Position numbers and translations under genes: made by a program
Part shown: piece after piece, positions 41,248 to 54,545 of the stretch
Layout: every line of letters begins with the position of its first letter
How positions within the stretch are numbered: the first letter of the stretch is position 1
Notes under the pieces: generated by a model
Database searches by the model: none
The model's input: only the letters and a program-made list of their open reading frames with translations
Told to the model about the DNA's origin: nothing
Source of the DNA: Thermodesulfovibrionia bacterium
GTDB lineage: Bacteria > Nitrospirota > Thermodesulfovibrionia > UBA6902
Assembly (NCBI GenBank): GCA_947259645.1
Contig: CAMYND010000006.1
Location: 1-54,545 of the forward strand
Length of the DNA stretch: 54,545 nucleotides
Direction of reading: 5' to 3'

Positions 41248-41940
41248 GGGTTCACACTATTAAAAAAATCAAAATATTTATTTGATATATGAGATCGAAT
41301 CTTCATTTATTAGCAACTTGTTAAACACGTTAGTTACACTTTATTTCCAATGAAAGGCTATATTATTTATCGGTTTTTTGATATTAATCCTAAAGAGGAG
41401 TTTTACTTCTGAAATATATCCACCCTTATACCCATTTGGTTCGTAGACATGTATTTTTAAGAGGAAGCGGGGTAAGTGTGGCACTATGGGGGAGTTGTGG
41501 CGAGAAACAATATTTCAAAAAAGCTCTCTTTACACCCTTTTTTATGGATATCCCTTCTATCAAATCGAAATCATTCTTTTAACCTGTAATTATCAATTTT
41601 AGAGTCCTCAAATATTATTTATAAGCAGATAGAAGCTTTAACTCTGAGAAGAAGAAAATCTGAGGATATCTAATACAATTCTGCTACATATTCAAATAGA
41701 AATTGTTTAGCTCACGGTAAAAATACCTATTAATCAGACATGTGTATAAAGATCAGCAGGAAGAGCGCCGGACTTCAAGTTTCATTAATGTGTGAGGTCA
41801 AACCCGCACATTACTATTTGCAGAATTTTTTAAATGTATAATGCAGGTCTGACCTCTTACCATATAATTTCCGTTCCTTATTAATAGCCCAATCAGCTAA
41901 TATATAATAGTTGATAACCACTGAAGACCTGGGGTTCACC
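41248..41940. other. 693-bp gene-free region
   Basis: AT-rich, with no convincing ORF. The right end carries a REP-like hairpin at 41794-41856. It separates the minus-strand TPR cluster from the + strand cytochrome gene and presumably holds both promoters. Confidence 0.5.
41794..41856. repeat. REP-like hairpin, copy A
   Basis: GAGGTCA at 41794-41800 pairs with TGACCTC at 41850-41856, and CATTA/TAATG forms an inner stem around a T-rich loop. The GCAGGTCTGACC side resembles REP elements mobilised by RAYT transposases. It lies 85 bp before the cytochrome start. Confidence 0.5.
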
Positions 41941-43548
41941 ATGAATAAAGTCTTATTCATTATTATTGCCATTTTGCTTCTGCCCAGCACTTCAGCATTC
42001 TCACGCGAAGGCAAATCAGTATTTGAAATTCAATGCATTCGATGTCATTCCCTTGAGCGAGTATTAAGCAAAAACAAAACGTTAGAGGCCTGGCGAAGAA
42101 CTGTCATGAGAATGTCTTCCTATTCTTTCAGAAAATTTACACCAGATGATATGGATAATTTAGCACAGTACCTTGCGAGAAATTCAGCACAACGAGCGCC
42201 TCTCACTACCGCTGAAGAAAAGAAAATGAGAAATATTACTGAATTAGAGGACAGTGAAATGTTCGATTTCAATAAGGTGAGAGTCAGTCAGTTCATAGAC
42301 CCGAAATTCTGCAGTGGTTGTCATTCCGAGATTTTTGATATGTGGAGCGGTTCAATGCACAGTAAGGCATTCCTTAATCCGCTCTGGCAGAGTGCTGCAA
42401 AATTATTTGTAAACGAGGTATCAACGTCAGCTGAAATTCTGGAAATGAAGACCTGTGTAAAGTGTCATACACCGCTTGGGTTCCGCTCTTACCTGATAAA
42501 CTATCCGAAGGATGATTTCGATAAAGTCCCTGAACTTCCGGCACAGGGGGTTTTCTGTAACTGGTGCCACAATATCAGTGAAGTGAAGCATATAGGTGAC
42601 GCCCGTTACAAGGTCAACCCTGGTGGCGGTGAAGAAGCCCCGTCGACAATGCTTGGTCCTTTCAAGGATGCGTACTCAAATGTCCATCCAACAAAGTACT
42701 CAGCGTTGCACACCCGATCAGAATTTTGCGGGCTCTGTCATAATGTCTCACACGCTGTAAATCGGCTTCCAATTGAAACCACCTATGATGAATGGAAAAA
42801 CAGCCCCTATAACACAGGAGACCCGGACACTACCGTAAGCTGTCAGGACTGTCACATGAGGCAAAGACCGGGAGTTCCTGCAACAGGAAAGACAGAGCGA
42901 CCTGACAATCCGGGCAAAGCAAGTAGATATGGGCCGCAACGAAAGCATATATGGACCCACTACTTTGTGGGAGCGAACGCTCTTATTACAAAACAATTCA
43001 GGAGTGATACACACGTTCAAATGGCTATGCAAAATCTTCAACATGCCGCAGATTTGGAAATCATAAAAAACAGTGCGTACAGAACGAATGAAATCTCGGA
43101 TATTAAGGTAAAGGTGATCAATTCCGGGGCAGGCCATTATCTCCCGACAGGCCTAACGTCATTAAGGCAGATGTGGCTCTACGTGAAGGTCTCTGACAGC
43201 AACGGGAAGTTGATTTTTCAGTCCGGAGTACTCGATGAACAGGGTGAAATTGATGACAGTGCGGTACTGTATCATACTGTGCTGGGTAATGACCAGGGTG
43301 AGCCTGTAATAAATATCGCAAAAGCAGTAAAAATTCTCCATGATCACAGAGTTCCGCCAAAAGGCTCCGTTATTGAATCATTTTCCTTTAGAATCCCCCC
43401 TGACGCAGTTTCTCCCCTGCGTATCAGGGCAACGCTGAAATACAGAAGTATCTCGCAACCGCTCGCACAAGAATTAATGGGAGATGATACACCGGACATA
43501 CCTGTCATAAATATGGTGAGCGATTATGAGAGTGTTAATTTCCCTTAA
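41941..43548 (+). CDS. Hexahaem cytochrome c
   Basis: 535 residues from the ATG at 41941, with a signal peptide (MNKVLFIIIAILLLPSTSAF). Six CXXCH haem sites are visible: CIRCH near residue 30, CSGCH near 123, CVKCH near 170, CNWCH near 206, CGLCH near 262 and CQDCH near 300. The first lies in a small cytochrome-c-like domain, and the other five form a cytochrome c554-like multihaem domain. The last 200 residues are haem-free and beta-rich (GAGHYLPTGLTSLRQMWLYV). It is a periplasmic electron carrier or reductase. It precedes the Fe-S operon by 160 bp on the same strand. Confidence 0.9.
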   Translation: MNKVLFIIIAILLLPSTSAFSREGKSVFEIQCIRCHSLERVLSKNKTLEAWRRTVMRMSSYSFRKFTPDDMDNLAQYLARNSAQRAPLTTAEEKKMRNITELEDSEMFDFNKVRVSQFIDPKFCSGCHSEIFDMWSGSMHSKAFLNPLWQSAAKLFVNEVSTSAEILEMKTCVKCHTPLGFRSYLINYPKDDFDKVPELPAQGVFCNWCHNISEVKHIGDARYKVNPGGGEEAPSTMLGPFKDAYSNVHPTKYSALHTRSEFCGLCHNVSHAVNRLPIETTYDEWKNSPYNTGDPDTTVSCQDCHMRQRPGVPATGKTERPDNPGKASRYGPQRKHIWTHYFVGANALITKQFRSDTHVQMAMQNLQHAADLEIIKNSAYRTNEISDIKVKVINSGAGHYLPTGLTSLRQMWLYVKVSDSNGKLIFQSGVLDEQGEIDDSAVLYHTVLGNDQGEPVINIAKAVKILHDHRVPPKGSVIESFSFRIPPDAVSPLRIRATLKYRSISQPLAQELMGDDTPDIPVINMVSDYESVNFP

Positions 43549-48963: not shown

Positions 48964-49917
48964 TTACTGTTCAGACTCAACCAAAGAATCAAACTCTTTC
49001 ATGATCTTTTTTGCTTTCCATTCAGAAACAAGAAATGCGTAGGGACTCTCTGATGAAATTGCCGGGAACTTGTTATCCTCTTTCTCAAAAAAGGAAAGCC
49101 TGTATGTTTCCTGCCCTTTGAGCTGTACCATATAAACAGGGTTGCTGAAGTCTTGCTTTTGCCTGTCTTCTATGAACTCATCGCATTGAAAGCCGGACAG
49201 AGTATTCACAATACCCTCTGCTTCCGCTGCCTTCACCGTCCTGCCGTCAGCAGTAGTCCAGACAGGTCCCGCGTCTGAGGGTGGCTGAGGTTCCTCCTTC
49301 TCTTCAGCAACATCTACTGATACAGGAGCGACAGTCCTGATGATCGAGAGCTCTTCTTCCCCTTTCTGCAGAACAATTTCAGCTATCTCATCATTAAATG
49401 ACATCACCTTTTTATCCCGCAATTCAGGTACTGTCCGATCTATGTCTTTTCTTACTTCCTCCCTGGAATGATACACGCGGTAATCATCGCCTATCATGAC
49501 AAATGTCTGGCGATGGGTAGGAGTATTTTTACCGATCATTATCTTTCGCAGAACATTGTCCCCCTTATATGCGGCTACCTCGATACGATTTTTTTCGTCA
49601 AGCTCATAGATCGCGTAATTTTTTGACTCCGAAGCGAGGGCACTCAGCGTGAGGCCGGAGACAGCGCTGATCATTTTCTGCACCATGGCACTGTCAGCAG
49701 GATATTTATTGTCACCAATAAGCCATGTATCGCCCTCTTTGACAATCGTGATTTCAGAACCTGCCTTTCCCGTGGTAATTTTCGTAATATCCTCAGCAGC
49801 CAGTTTCTGAATCTCAGGCAGCTCATAATGAGTTTTTTCATTTTTCCTGGTTGATATATAAAAAACAAGAACCGTAATTAAAAAGAAAAGAATGGCTATC
49901 TCTTTTTTCTGTCTCAT
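48964..49917 (-). CDS. DUF4340 domain protein
   Basis: 317 residues from the ATG at 49917 (MRQKKEIAILFFL) behind AAGGAG. A single N-terminal membrane helix is followed by DUF4340-type repeats of beta-strands: DTWLIGDNKYPADSAMVQKM near residue 65, VMIGKNTPTHRQTFVMIGDD-like near 125, and GPVWTTADGRTVKAAEAE near 220. DUF4340 proteins usually accompany GldG-type auxiliary ABC proteins, as here. It is the last gene of the ABC operon, 90 bp after the GldG-like gene. Confidence 0.85.
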   Translation of the reverse strand: MRQKKEIAILFFLITVLVFYISTRKNEKTHYELPEIQKLAAEDITKITTGKAGSEITIVKEGDTWLIGDNKYPADSAMVQKMISAVSGLTLSALASESKNYAIYELDEKNRIEVAAYKGDNVLRKIMIGKNTPTHRQTFVMIGDDYRVYHSREEVRKDIDRTVPELRDKKVMSFNDEIAEIVLQKGEEELSIIRTVAPVSVDVAEEKEEPQPPSDAGPVWTTADGRTVKAAEAEGIVNTLSGFQCDEFIEDRQKQDFSNPVYMVQLKGQETYRLSFFEKEDNKFPAISSESPYAFLVSEWKAKKIMKEFDSLVESEQ

Positions 49918-50007
49918 AGGGTGACTCCTTGCTGCCACTATTTATTGTTTGAAATCGATATGTCCAGTGAGGACGGGCTGTTCGTCGTCCAGACACTGAC
50001 GTCTCTC

Positions 50008-52215
50008 TTAGCTGAATATCTTCTGTATCGTGCGCTTTCTTGCAGAACGCCGCGCCCAGACAACGATCCCCGCAGCAATCACAAGTATCGGAATCCCCCC
50101 TATATTGGCCGTCTTTATGGCAGTTCTCGCGGCAGGAGCGATTTCCTGGAGAGGGTTGAATCGCTGTGTCTTGCTGCGCATCGACGCAATCTCTTCCCTT
50201 CCGTTCAGATAGTCTATTATGTTCAGAACAAACTGGGAATTGGGTGTCTTTCCCTCGTCGTCTACAACATTATTTTTCAGAACTTCTGAAGTTCCCAGGA
50301 GAAATATTCTGGCTTTTTTGCTCCTGTCTATAATGACATCCCTGCTTTTTATCTCTGACATATCAACACCCGACACAGTGCTTTCGGATGGACTATCTTC
50401 CCCGCCGGTGGCTGCAGTATCCGCGGCTTTCTCTTCTTTTTCCGGTATAGCCTTGCCTTCAAAGTAACTTGCGAAAGAGCCCTCCAGCATATACGCCATG
50501 GGCATACTCCCGAATTTATCATCTCCCGCAGGAGGCTGGATCGCCCGGGGATCAAGGTTAATCCTTCCGGTCATTTCCCAGGATTCATCAGAAGAAGAAA
50601 ACAGCCTTGTTGCCCTGAGCGCGTCACCCCCGGTTTTCTGTGTATCCGCTTCTACAGGAGACGCGGAGAGCATAACAAGCCCCTTGATGTTATTGAGATA
50701 CGCTGCATCTTTGTTTATCATCTCGCTTTTGATAATGGGGGCAAAATATATCGTCCGCTCACCGCCTCCAAGCTGACTGGGCATCCTCTGTTTAAAGCTG
50801 TTTTTATCAAGGACGATCGATTTCTTAATGTTGAGACCGTAATGGGTCAGCAGTTTCTCAAGACCTGTATCGACAGGCATCCAGTATGATCTCTGAAACT
50901 GCGGAACCATGGACTGCTGGCTTTGGGGCTTCACCTCTTTGAATGAGTCCATGAACAGGGCGAGGCTGTTGCCCTTCATGAGGAACTGATCGATTTGATA
51001 GAGCTCATACTCTGAAAACTGCTCATTCGGACCGGCAACTACTAATGTGGAAATACCGTCCGGAATCCCCTCTTCCTTCAGGTTAACCTGTTTGATCGAA
51101 TATCCCTCTGAAAGCAGTGTATTCAGGTTGGAAAGCGATTCCTGCTGCTGGGGCTGACCGAACATCGGGGGCAGTGACTCAATGGAATGGGTGCCATGAT
51201 CAGCCAGGTAGCCTATTTTCTCATTTATGTTAATGACCAGCTCAACCGTTTCGGCAATTGACTGTTCGATTTCCTCGAGATCAGCCATCTGATACTGTGT
51301 GCCAAATATAGGAAGGCGGATCACCTCGATAAGTTCAATATTCTCTTTCTGCTCCCCGTGCTGAACAATAAGACCGGCAATACCCTTGTCTGCGGCGACT
51401 GTCCTGCCTCTTCTGTCCTTGAACTCGTCCCAGTTGAGGCTCAGCAGCCCCTGCTTTTCCGCTTCTTCGCCAGCCGTAAGGTCCGCGCTTGGATCATGGT
51501 AGGAAAATTCCAGTTTATTAAAATTTTTATTGTTTAGCCGCTGGACAGTTGCCTCTATCTGATCCGGCAGGGCAACAAGACCTGATATGTTCATGTAGGG
51601 GCCGACTATTTTCAGCGACGATGATAAGAACAGTTTTACTGATATTTTATCTTTCAGCCTCAGCAGCGCACTTATTTTGTTGTTCATTTTTCTGATAGAG
51701 GTGGTTATTTTGTATTCAAGGCCGTCAGTTGATGTTATGGTGGGTATGGATTCGATTATATCGCCATGAATCAGGGCCAATCCCATGTATGCCTTCTGAA
51801 ATTTGACTTCATCCTGTTCAATGTTCTGGATCTGAACAGGGCTGATGCCATAGTTCTCAGCCACTTGACGGTTGCCGGCTGACTCCTCATTTTCCTCTCC
51901 GGACATTCTGTAGAACTGATAATTGAAATACTTCCCGCCTGCCATGGAATATTCTTCAAGCAAATCATGGAGGTATCGCTCTATATTGTTGTAGGGAGCA
52001 GGCAGGTTACTGTTAAAAAACACTTTTACCGTAAGCGGTTCAGAAAGGGTAGCCACTACGTTGCTGCTGGCTTTCGACAGCGAATACACCTTGTCGGATG
52101 TCAGATCCATCCTGAAAAACAGGGTAACCCCCGCGATATTTATCAGCACAACTACAATGAGGTACATGAGGAATTTGGTGTATTTGCCGGTCTGGACAGG
52201 ATTTTTCACAGCCAT
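50008..52215 (-). CDS. GldG-like ABC transporter auxiliary protein
   Basis: A 735-residue protein with an N-terminal helix (FLMYLIVVVLINIAGVTLFF), a large periplasmic domain and a C-terminal helix (GGIPILVIAAGIVVWARRSA). The opening YSLSKASSNVVATLSEPLTVKVFFNSNLP and the mid-segment VAGPNEQFSEYELYQIDQFL are typical of the GldG/ABC_transp_aux family. It starts directly after the permease stop, with CAGGAG inside the end of that gene. In Bacteroidetes the homologue serves gliding motility and secretion; in other phyla the role of this transporter is unclear. Confidence 0.85.
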   Translation of the reverse strand: MAVKNPVQTGKYTKFLMYLIVVVLINIAGVTLFFRMDLTSDKVYSLSKASSNVVATLSEPLTVKVFFNSNLPAPYNNIERYLHDLLEEYSMAGGKYFNYQFYRMSGEENEESAGNRQVAENYGISPVQIQNIEQDEVKFQKAYMGLALIHGDIIESIPTITSTDGLEYKITTSIRKMNNKISALLRLKDKISVKLFLSSSLKIVGPYMNISGLVALPDQIEATVQRLNNKNFNKLEFSYHDPSADLTAGEEAEKQGLLSLNWDEFKDRRGRTVAADKGIAGLIVQHGEQKENIELIEVIRLPIFGTQYQMADLEEIEQSIAETVELVININEKIGYLADHGTHSIESLPPMFGQPQQQESLSNLNTLLSEGYSIKQVNLKEEGIPDGISTLVVAGPNEQFSEYELYQIDQFLMKGNSLALFMDSFKEVKPQSQQSMVPQFQRSYWMPVDTGLEKLLTHYGLNIKKSIVLDKNSFKQRMPSQLGGGERTIYFAPIIKSEMINKDAAYLNNIKGLVMLSASPVEADTQKTGGDALRATRLFSSSDESWEMTGRINLDPRAIQPPAGDDKFGSMPMAYMLEGSFASYFEGKAIPEKEEKAADTAATGGEDSPSESTVSGVDMSEIKSRDVIIDRSKKARIFLLGTSEVLKNNVVDDEGKTPNSQFVLNIIDYLNGREEIASMRSKTQRFNPLQEIAPAARTAIKTANIGGIPILVIAAGIVVWARRSARKRTIQKIFS

Positions 52216-52217
52216 TG

Positions 52218-52922
52218 TTATTTTTTCTCCTGAATTACGATGTTTGTACTATAGAGCATTACAAAACAGACACTGATGAAATAGATAATGTCCCTCGAGT
52301 CAAGTATGCCCTTTGAAATATTCTGAAAATGATAATCCGCGCCCAAAAACTGAAAGAAGTTCAGTGCTGACTCCGGAAGAAAAAAGAGCATCTTGTCAAG
52401 GAGGGTTAGAATGAAACACAAGGACATGCCCGTAATAAAGGCTACAATCTGGTTGCGCGTGAGGGATGAAGCAAAGAGCCCTACCGCGGTAAAGGCAGCC
52501 CCGAGCAGAACAGCACCAATGTAACCTCCGATAACAGGACCCCAGTCAAGATCACCGATAAACGATATGCAGATACCGTATATCACCGTGGGCAGGAGCA
52601 TAACAATTACAAAAGCGACAGCACCCATGAACTTGCCGATAATGATGTCCATGCTTGAAACCGGCAGCGTATAGATGAGCTCGAAAGAACCGGTGTTAAA
52701 CTCTTCAGAAAAGAGCCTCATGGTAATTGCCGGGACGACAAATGAGAATATGATCGGCAAGAGAGAGAAAAAGTTTCTCATTTCAGCCTGTCCGAAGAGA
52801 AAAAATGTGGAAAAGAAAAACCATCCTGCCAGAATCAGAAATATTGAAATAACTATATAGGCAATGGGAGAAATAAAGTAACTTTTAAATTCTCTTCTGA
52901 ATATGTTTATTGCGCCAGCCAT
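52218..52922 (-). CDS. ABC transporter permease (GldF/ABC-2 type)
   Basis: A 234-residue protein with six membrane helices. It opens with INIFRREFKSYFISPIAYIV, the family motif of ABC-2 permeases near GldF/NosY, and SEEFNTGSFELIYTLPVS near residue 70 is highly characteristic. It starts one base after the ATPase stop behind GGGAGGG, so it is translationally coupled. Confidence 0.9.
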   Translation of the reverse strand: MAGAINIFRREFKSYFISPIAYIVISIFLILAGWFFFSTFFLFGQAEMRNFFSLLPIIFSFVVPAITMRLFSEEFNTGSFELIYTLPVSSMDIIIGKFMGAVAFVIVMLLPTVIYGICISFIGDLDWGPVIGGYIGAVLLGAAFTAVGLFASSLTRNQIVAFITGMSLCFILTLLDKMLFFLPESALNFFQFLGADYHFQNISKGILDSRDIIYFISVCFVMLYSTNIVIQEKK

Positions 52923-52923
52923 A

Positions 52924-53859
52924 TCATCCCTCCCTCGTCAGTTCCCTGAATATATTTTCCAGTGTCCGCGTTTCCCTGTGAAACTCAAGAAGAGGCCAGT
53001 TATTGTTTTTGATTACCTGGTATATATCTGACCGCACATCTTTATGGCTGCTGCAGGCGATATGAAACTCAACCAGATCAGTCTCGGAGTGAGTAAGGAT
53101 AACATCCTTCACCTCAGGCACGGATTTAAAGGAATCCTTCACCTCATCAAAATTCCCGTGCATTATCGAAACCTTGATAATGTAGTCGCTGCCTGCCTCG
53201 CGCTTCAGTTCGTCTGTTGACCCGTCAGCGACAATCTTTCCTTTATTTATAATCACAATCCGGTCACAGGTGGCCTCTGCCTCGCTCAATATGTGCGTGG
53301 AGAGAATGACTGTTTTTTCCCTGCCGATTTTTCTGATAATGTCCCTGATCTCAACGATCTGGTTCGGATCAAGGCCTGAGGTCGGTTCATCAAGTATGAG
53401 GATTTCGGGATCATTGATCATGGCATGGGCAAGTCCTACTCTCTGTTTATATCCCTTTGATAACTCATTAACCGGCCTGTGCATCACCTCATTGATCCCG
53501 CACATGTCCGCAAGTTTCTTCAGTCGTGAATCCACTTCAGCTGTTCCTATCTGCCGTACATCAGCCACAAACTTCAGGTAATCATAGACAAGCATGTCAG
53601 GATAGAGGGGAGCCGATTCCGGAAGATACCCCATGAGATTTTTTATTTCAAGGGAATGCTCATAGATATCGAGATCCTTAACCGTAATATTTCCGGATGT
53701 GGGCTGAAGATAGCAGGTGAGCATTCTCATTGTCGTTGTCTTGCCGGCTCCATTGGGGCCAAGCAAACCGAGAATCTCGCCCTTTTTTATATCAAATGTT
53801 ATTTCATCTACAGCCCGGGAATCACCGTAGAATTTGGTGAGGTTTTCAATATGAATCAT
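52924..53859 (-). CDS. ABC transporter ATP-binding protein (GldA-like)
   Basis: A 311-residue ATPase. Walker A is GPNGAGKTTTM near residue 36, Q-loop region GYLPESAPLYPDM near 82, signature LSKGYKQRVGLAH near 135, Walker B ILILDEPTSGLDP near 154, and switch His STHILSE near 190. The C-terminal 80 residues are a regulatory extension. It drives the permease and GldG-like partner downstream. GGGAGGG precedes the ATG. Confidence 0.93.
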   Translation of the reverse strand: MIHIENLTKFYGDSRAVDEITFDIKKGEILGLLGPNGAGKTTTMRMLTCYLQPTSGNITVKDLDIYEHSLEIKNLMGYLPESAPLYPDMLVYDYLKFVADVRQIGTAEVDSRLKKLADMCGINEVMHRPVNELSKGYKQRVGLAHAMINDPEILILDEPTSGLDPNQIVEIRDIIRKIGREKTVILSTHILSEAEATCDRIVIINKGKIVADGSTDELKREAGSDYIIKVSIMHGNFDEVKDSFKSVPEVKDVILTHSETDLVEFHIACSSHKDVRSDIYQVIKNNNWPLLEFHRETRTLENIFRELTREG

Positions 53860-53990: not shown

Positions 53991-54545
53991 TCAGTTCACT
54001 GAAACCTGTGTCCTGTCAACTCCTGTATTCCCTGTCTGTTGGTCATAGGCGTAGACGATGATCTCATATACCCCTTTTTCAGCAACTTCTGCTCTGCCCT
54101 GAAATGTGCTTGGTGATACATACGACATGGGTACGGTCTTGAGTATTCTGCCGTTATGTTTAACAAGTGCCTCTATTTCATATTTATTTGAGTCCCATAA
54201 CCCACCCGGGGTTAATGCGCACCCTCATATCATTACTATTCTAGCCTGGATAGGGATAACAGCCCTGCTCCCACGCAGGTCCGCCTTCGCGGCAGCAGCT
54301 ACATCTACTGAAAATCCCGGGACCTCTACAATTACTCCCTCCCCGACAATATCTTTACCCGGAATGAGCCATAGCTGCGTTGAGCTTTTAATCATGTTCG
54401 GTTTCATCCCATAGGGAGCCTCCACTTCAATGGTGATCAGTCTGGGCTCATCAATATCAATAACTGTTTCAAACCCTGCGGTCGCAGAATCCGTAATCCG
54501 GCCGAAGCGTGACCGGGGACGGATCATAATGACCTCTGAATTTCC
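53991..54545 (-). CDS. 5'-partial protein with in-frame TGA; candidate selenoprotein or nonsense-mutated gene
   Basis: The frame is open from the right window edge, runs through TGA at 54225-54227, and continues for 77 more codons to a second TGA at 53991. Both halves look like one beta-rich exported protein: before the stop LWLIPGKDIVGEGVIVEVPG and ARIVMI, after it GCALTPGGLWDSNKYEIEAL and GVYEIIVYAYDQQTGNTGVD. Reading the TGA as selenocysteine gives I-U-G-C, a redox-like U-x-C motif, and a SECIS-like hairpin follows at once. A CGA-to-TGA or TGC-to-TGA mutation is the alternative. No selA, selB or selC is visible here. I do not recognise the family with certainty. Confidence 0.6.
54190..54224 (-). 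promoter_or_regulatory. Candidate bacterial SECIS element
   Basis: It starts at the base after the in-frame TGA. On the mRNA strand, GGGT pairs with ACTC (one G:U), an internal loop follows, then a perfect six-base stem TAACCC/GGGTTA closes an apical loop CGGGT. The apical loop begins after 16 bases and has G at its second position. Loop distance and a loop G are the known requirements for bacterial SECIS elements. Confidence 0.45.

Follow-up and report, generated by a model that had tools for sequence, protein, structure and literature searches.

A probable new family of exported selenoproteins with a U-G-C motif in Nitrospirota

Described U-G-C selenoproteins and the gene at the contig end

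A review of May 2026 lists 119 families of prokaryotic selenoproteins, in which the motif UGC is given for DUF1573 and for a TlpA-type protein, and UxC for a few others. The UGC selenoproteins of the TlpA/Prx-like type (cd02966 / pfam00578) are thiol redox proteins with a thioredoxin fold. A redox-active cysteine pair is also present in CsgC (-139 mV), a periplasmic protein of Ig-like fold whose BC loop bears the CxC and to which nDsbD is related (PMC3173608).

The stretch of DNA analysed here (the window, 54,545 bp) is a whole contig. On its minus strand a reading frame runs in across the contig end at 54545 and, on direct reading and translation, is open to a TGA at 54225-54227. Beyond this TGA a further 77 codons are open before the frame is terminated by a second TGA (53991-53993, minus strand). 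With the first TGA translated as U, the 5'-truncated gene (53991-54545, minus strand) encodes 184 residues followed by the stop, and selenocysteine (Sec) is residue 107 of this visible part, in the context QARIVMI-U-GCALTPGGLWDSNKYEI. Because the window is the whole contig, approximately the first 68 codons of the gene are missing here; these codons, together with the signal peptide, fall outside the contig end and were seen in relatives. The TGA is followed by GGG TGC, which gives a U-G-C motif (54219-54227, minus strand) that we propose as the active pair. Both the frame of 77 codons past the TGA and the motif I-U-G-C had been pointed out in a first-pass annotation; direct reading reproduced its coordinates and its codon count, and I/L-U-G-C was found in 20 homologous genes.

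The gene very probably represents a real and undescribed family of exported selenoproteins, which would be a new family and not a new mechanism. The protein had been judged unlike the common selenoproteins at first reading, and it matched no described family: no convincing match was obtained to those of the 119 families that are listed under an NCBIfam or Pfam model. A UGC selenoprotein that is Ig-like or from Nitrospirota was not found in the openly accessible literature; an earlier mention with a different label, for instance in GenBank annotation, is possible.

Like the family of the window, the DUF1573 selenoprotein (PF07610, S-U-G-C-T) looks exported and contains U-G-C, and sister families within the class have it in the Sec form. 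However, the two show no sequence relation (hhalign probability 1.8%) and the flanking motif differs. DUF1573 was therefore rejected as the same family, and the family of the window is considered new. PF07610 gave no match at E<=1 among 16 members, and the genomes with the TGA form of DUF1573 gave no match to the family of the window. The TlpA/Prx-like selenoproteins share the U-G-C, but theirs is a thioredoxin fold, whereas the family described here has an all-beta, Ig-like model and no thioredoxin match in Pfam. A possible likeness to CsgC and nDsbD, whose Cys pair sits in a loop of a periplasmic Ig-like domain, comes from the predicted fold and the low-confidence predicted loop of our family; here Sec replaces Cys and there is an extra N-terminal beta domain. 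Neither CsgC nor nDsbD was matched by sequence in the Pfam or PDB profile searches, and both were absent among the 50 Foldseek matches listed. To the known prokaryotic selenoproteins it adds an unlisted family that is exported and probably not thioredoxin-like.

DUF1573 genes with an in-frame TGA were themselves encountered in sister families (L105-L113; genomes G049, G055, G037, G039, G051, G048, G054 and G053), with S-U-G-C-T where the motif was read. Two of these proteins (L107 and L109) continue into a cytochrome-like stretch that contains CxxCH.

Homologues and the residue at the selenocysteine column

In 61 related genomes 18 further matching stretches were found, and all but one short fragment had an in-frame TGA, always at the same column in the translated relatives (IVMI-U-GC-x-LTPGGLWDS). 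A KSB1 MAG had Cys at the Sec column (LVMM-C-GC). When a profile was run against 396 genomes of the phylum, further Sec forms came up in f14 (G205) and f9 (G220). The same search yielded Cys forms in f17, f14, f16 and f41, as well as matches in about 100 genomes of f29, presumably a family of nitrite oxidisers. A class-wide search added Cys forms in G419 and G431, and the phylum of the KSB1 genome contributed one Sec form (G486) and one Cys form (G530).

The first-pass annotation had singled out the column of the TGA for comparison between homologues, and the outcome was in its favour. An in-frame TGA occupies exactly this column (54225-54227 in the window, minus strand) in 20 homologous genes, from several Nitrospirota families (including f5, f9 and f14) and once from a second phylum (G486). 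A Cys codon is present in 11 others from two phyla (G265, G345, G290, G419, G431, G080, two genomes on the KSB1 side and three f41 genomes), and Ser or Ala was found only in one clade, which lacks both chalcogens. The motif was readable in 66 homologues: 20 have UGC, 8 CGC, 2 CDC and 1 CAC, and 35 are without both chalcogens. The latter are all from f29; their first position is Ser or Ala, and their third is Ser, Ala, Thr or Asn. Not one of the 66 keeps one chalcogen residue while having lost the other, and this joint retention or loss (66/66) is the strongest hint that Sec and Cys would work as a pair.

Placed on a maximum-likelihood tree, the Sec label has to change 4 times, and well-supported branches force at least 3 of these changes; the Ser form arises once. 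Beyond the TGA dN is much lower than dS, a sign of strongly purifying selection, from which we conclude that the 77 codons are translated. With natural U-G-C, C-G-C and S-G-S forms and several independent changes between Sec and Cys, the family is well suited to studying what a periplasmic beta-sandwich protein gains from selenium.

In G013 (C1:2045545-2045691, L018/L099) a short fragment matches the family at its C-terminal end only, and another such fragment, with a weak match, is present in G482 (C83:2186-2266, L104); these are possibly gene remnants. Two loci from different genera (L003, G028:C211, and L004, G011:C23) have in common a stretch of 2,919 bp with 99.93% identity, likely the result of cross-binning between MAGs or of very recent transfer.

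The hairpin after the TGA and its decoding

In the model of the bacterial SECIS element (bSECIS) the apical loop is 3-9 nt, the stem 4-16 bp and the spacing 16-37 nt, with a G in the first two loop bases and a minimum free energy of <= -7.5 (PMC13188914). In the window a hairpin (54190-54224, minus strand) lies directly 3' of the TGA, where the sequence reads GGGTGCGCAT-TAACCC-CGGGT-GGGTTA-TGGGACTC. Its upper stem of 6 bp (TAACCC, 54214-54209, with GGGTTA, 54203-54198, minus strand) starts 10 nt past the TGA, and the apical loop CGGGT (5 nt, 54208-54204) is separated from the TGA by 16 nt. An outer stem, GGGT/ACTC, of 4 bp including one G-U pair, begins immediately 3' of the TGA. The minimum free energy for the TGA plus 42 nt is -13.7 kcal/mol. 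With a 5-nt loop, a 6-bp stem, 16 nt of spacing and this energy, the hairpin lies within all four bSECIS constraints, a fit to the published geometry that had been noted at first reading, and it is conserved. The outer stem of 4 bp, the upper stem of 6 bp, the loop and the 16 bases of the first-pass annotation all stand; its start one base after the TGA does not, since the hairpin begins directly behind it.

The window contains 2,609 TGA triplets, of which only 0.38% are followed by a stem with 6 or more Watson-Crick pairs and a loop placed in this way; such a stem is produced by 0.035% of the synonymous recodings of the same peptide. Across the 20 Sec-form genes the codons concerned are nearly frozen (ACC 19/19, CCG 20/20, GGG 19/20 and TTA 18/19). 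Under the stem and loop (ACC-CCG-GGY-GGG-TTA) the codon entropy is 0.61 bits versus 1.69 bits elsewhere (p=2e-4), the comparison set being 51 other conserved columns of four-fold or higher degeneracy. In the most diverged Sec form (L046) the stem has been rewritten and is again a perfect one of 6 bp (CATGCC-GGGC-GGCATG), under a peptide T-M-P-G-G-M where the others have L-T-P-G-G-L. As 8.7% of the synonymous recodings of the L046 peptide yield such a stem, it is supportive but not decisive alone; covariation of the stem is argued here from individual sequences and not from a count of pairs.

The stem is lost in most Cys forms. In one Cys form (L043) a 5-bp hairpin persists, and in another (L045, G345) the Cys codon is followed by a decayed SECIS, TAACCC..GGGATA (TTAACCCCGGGCGGGATA), likely a fossil that would have been left after a change from Sec to Cys. 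Because of these two, loss of the hairpin does not separate Cys from Sec forms cleanly.

The Ile codon before U (54228-54230 in the window) is ATA in 17 of 17 genes of the window and its relatives, and other Ile columns vary. An ATA upstream of the UGA is possibly an extra constraint on base context.

The search for sel genes suggested by the first-pass annotation turned up all four in the genome of the window (G000). These are selA (match at 6e-185), selB (2e-110), which adjoins selA on C11, selC, a tRNA-Sec with a TCA anticodon, and selD (C94:2026-2940, L135). The last carries an in-frame TGA of its own, so that the SelD of this genome is itself probably Sec-containing. Among the f1 genomes with a Sec form selA was found in 13 of 15 tested, and it was also present in G205, G220 and G486. 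It gave no match in the Sec-form genomes G003 and G004 (f1) and G046 (f5), all incomplete assemblies (78-91%). It was absent from all 10 f29 Ser-form genomes tested and is still present in most Cys-form genomes.

Given the SECIS hairpin directly 3' of the UGA, and given that some 20 relatives keep both stop and hairpin and others use Cys there, the UGA at 54225-54227 is almost certainly read as selenocysteine by SelB, a judgement made from sequence comparison. SelB together with Sec-tRNA(UCA) would carry out the decoding. Reassignment of UGA to Trp or Gly, or else simple programmed readthrough or regulated termination, is very improbable. Readthrough needs only a UGA, and our analysis reads the sequence and not the inserted residue; but the relatives have Cys at this column and never Trp or Gly (none among the 66 read at the motif), and the SECIS geometry, the frozen codons and the complete set of sel genes argue against both versions. 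The gene itself ends at a TGA, in the genome of the window as well as in L005, so in the genome of the window this codon is still a stop, and TGA as a general sense codon was rejected. Least probable of all is an ordinary gene disrupted by a nonsense mutation, a frameshift or an error of sequencing: the locus does lie at a MAG contig end and the +1 frame across the spot does give a plausible stretch (NDMRVRINPG), but the same TGA and frame recur in the other Sec-form genes, with the protein conserved on both sides and under purifying selection past the TGA; recurrence across families and two phyla refutes error and nonsense mutation, and the frameshift was rejected because the TGA frame is kept in all homologues.

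With selenocysteine as the reading of this codon, gene callers that take TGA as a stop cut these genes at the Sec codon and lose approximately the last 77 residues, including the partner Cys.

Predicted fold, gene neighbourhood and possible function

Full-length relatives are ~250 aa long (about 251-257) and have an N-terminal signal peptide ending like AEA. A full-length member gave no Pfam match at E<=10, and across 16 members only scattered weak Pfam matches were obtained, mostly to Ig-like domains. NCBIfam release 20.0 gave no convincing match among the 16 members (best E 0.024, to unrelated models), and profile searches of the PDB gave no sequence match. AlphaFold2 predicted an all-beta model of two domains for a full-length relative (pLDDT 72.5), and for the C-terminal domain alone seven strands (pLDDT 83), where the loop joining strand 2 to strand 3 carries the U-G-C. 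The models were built on alignments of 3 sequences, and the loop just after U (domain residues 40-42) has a pLDDT below 50. In the window the predicted Ig-like beta-sandwich domain with the U-G-C occupies 53994-54335 (minus strand), and 54336-54545 (minus strand) is the visible part of the first beta-rich domain, as placed by the alignments and by the model of the full-length relative. Among the Foldseek matches listed, the two-domain model retrieved only generic Ig proteins; the C-terminal domain retrieved Ig-like proteins, with the SoxYZ structure 2ox5 as the top match. The signal peptides of the relatives and the predicted all-beta model agree with the exported, beta-rich protein that had been proposed at first reading.

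The product would be a protein of ~250 aa with a signal peptide and two predicted beta-sandwich domains, probably exported to the periplasm, with Sec and Cys acting as one unit in a loop of the C-terminal Ig-like domain. We give about even chances to the reading that the U-G-C is a redox switch comparable in its action to the CxC of CsgC or to the Cys pair of nDsbD. In the periplasm U and C would join in a selenenylsulfide, and the switch between selenenylsulfide and selenol-thiol would exchange electrons with a periplasmic partner.

The main functional rival, possible but clearly less likely, is that this is a real selenoprotein in which U-G-C is a binding site for a soft metal (Cu, Hg) or for a chalcogen and takes no part in redox exchange. 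U-G-C would suit such binding, and the U/C pair is retained as a unit. The copper proteins CrdA, P19 and FtrA are among the Ig-like neighbours in Foldseek, and in 6 f1 genomes an HMA/CopZ-like gene lies upstream at a distance of no more than about 5 kb. However, the Foldseek matches are those of the Ig fold in general, and apart from a Met two residues before U the alignment contains no conserved cluster of His, Met or Cys beside the pair.

A sulfur-carrier-like protein with a SoxZ-related fold, carrying an S or Se intermediate on the Sec, is improbable. The top Foldseek match of the C-terminal domain, 2ox5 (E 6e-5, 22% identity, TM 0.46-0.48), points in this direction, and SoxY and sulfite oxidase are also among the matches. 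But the superposition on 2ox5 is poor (rmsd 6.9), Pfam gave no SoxZ match, and SoxZ has no U/C motif, the SoxZ sequences seen containing no Cys. Profile comparison with SoxZ (probability 4.9%) did not support it as a true relative.

For the redox switch, the best guess at a partner is a multiheme cytochrome c or its maturation, a weak and rather doubtful guess. In two Cys-form genomes, G345 and G431, a gene for a pentaheme Cytochrome_C554-type protein immediately precedes the gene of the family and overlaps with it, which suggests this cytochrome as the partner. There is no conserved gene neighbour among the Sec-form genomes, where the gene stands alone, and the link to cytochromes therefore comes from these two Cys-form genomes. 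The f1 genomes have only local synteny in common (a CopZ-like gene, a reductase and a nucleoside transporter). More doubtful still is the fullest version of the proposal, in which an Ig-fold selenol module of subsurface Nitrospirota and relatives would pass electrons in the periplasm and take the place of a thioredoxin-type partner of multiheme cytochromes; if this is true, the family would provide a redox carrier that is based on selenium and built on a non-thioredoxin scaffold.

Two further features of the window were recorded. At 41911-43545 (plus strand), ~10 kb from the selenoprotein gene, a multiheme cytochrome with 6 CxxCH is encoded, with matches to Cytochrome_C554 and to the haem-binding part of quinohemoprotein amine dehydrogenase. 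Downstream of the selenoprotein gene, at 48964-53859 (minus strand), lies a Gld-type ABC transporter operon (ATPase, ABC-2 membrane protein, ABC_transp_aux and DUF4340), the first two genes of which are also found downstream of the selenoprotein gene in G012.
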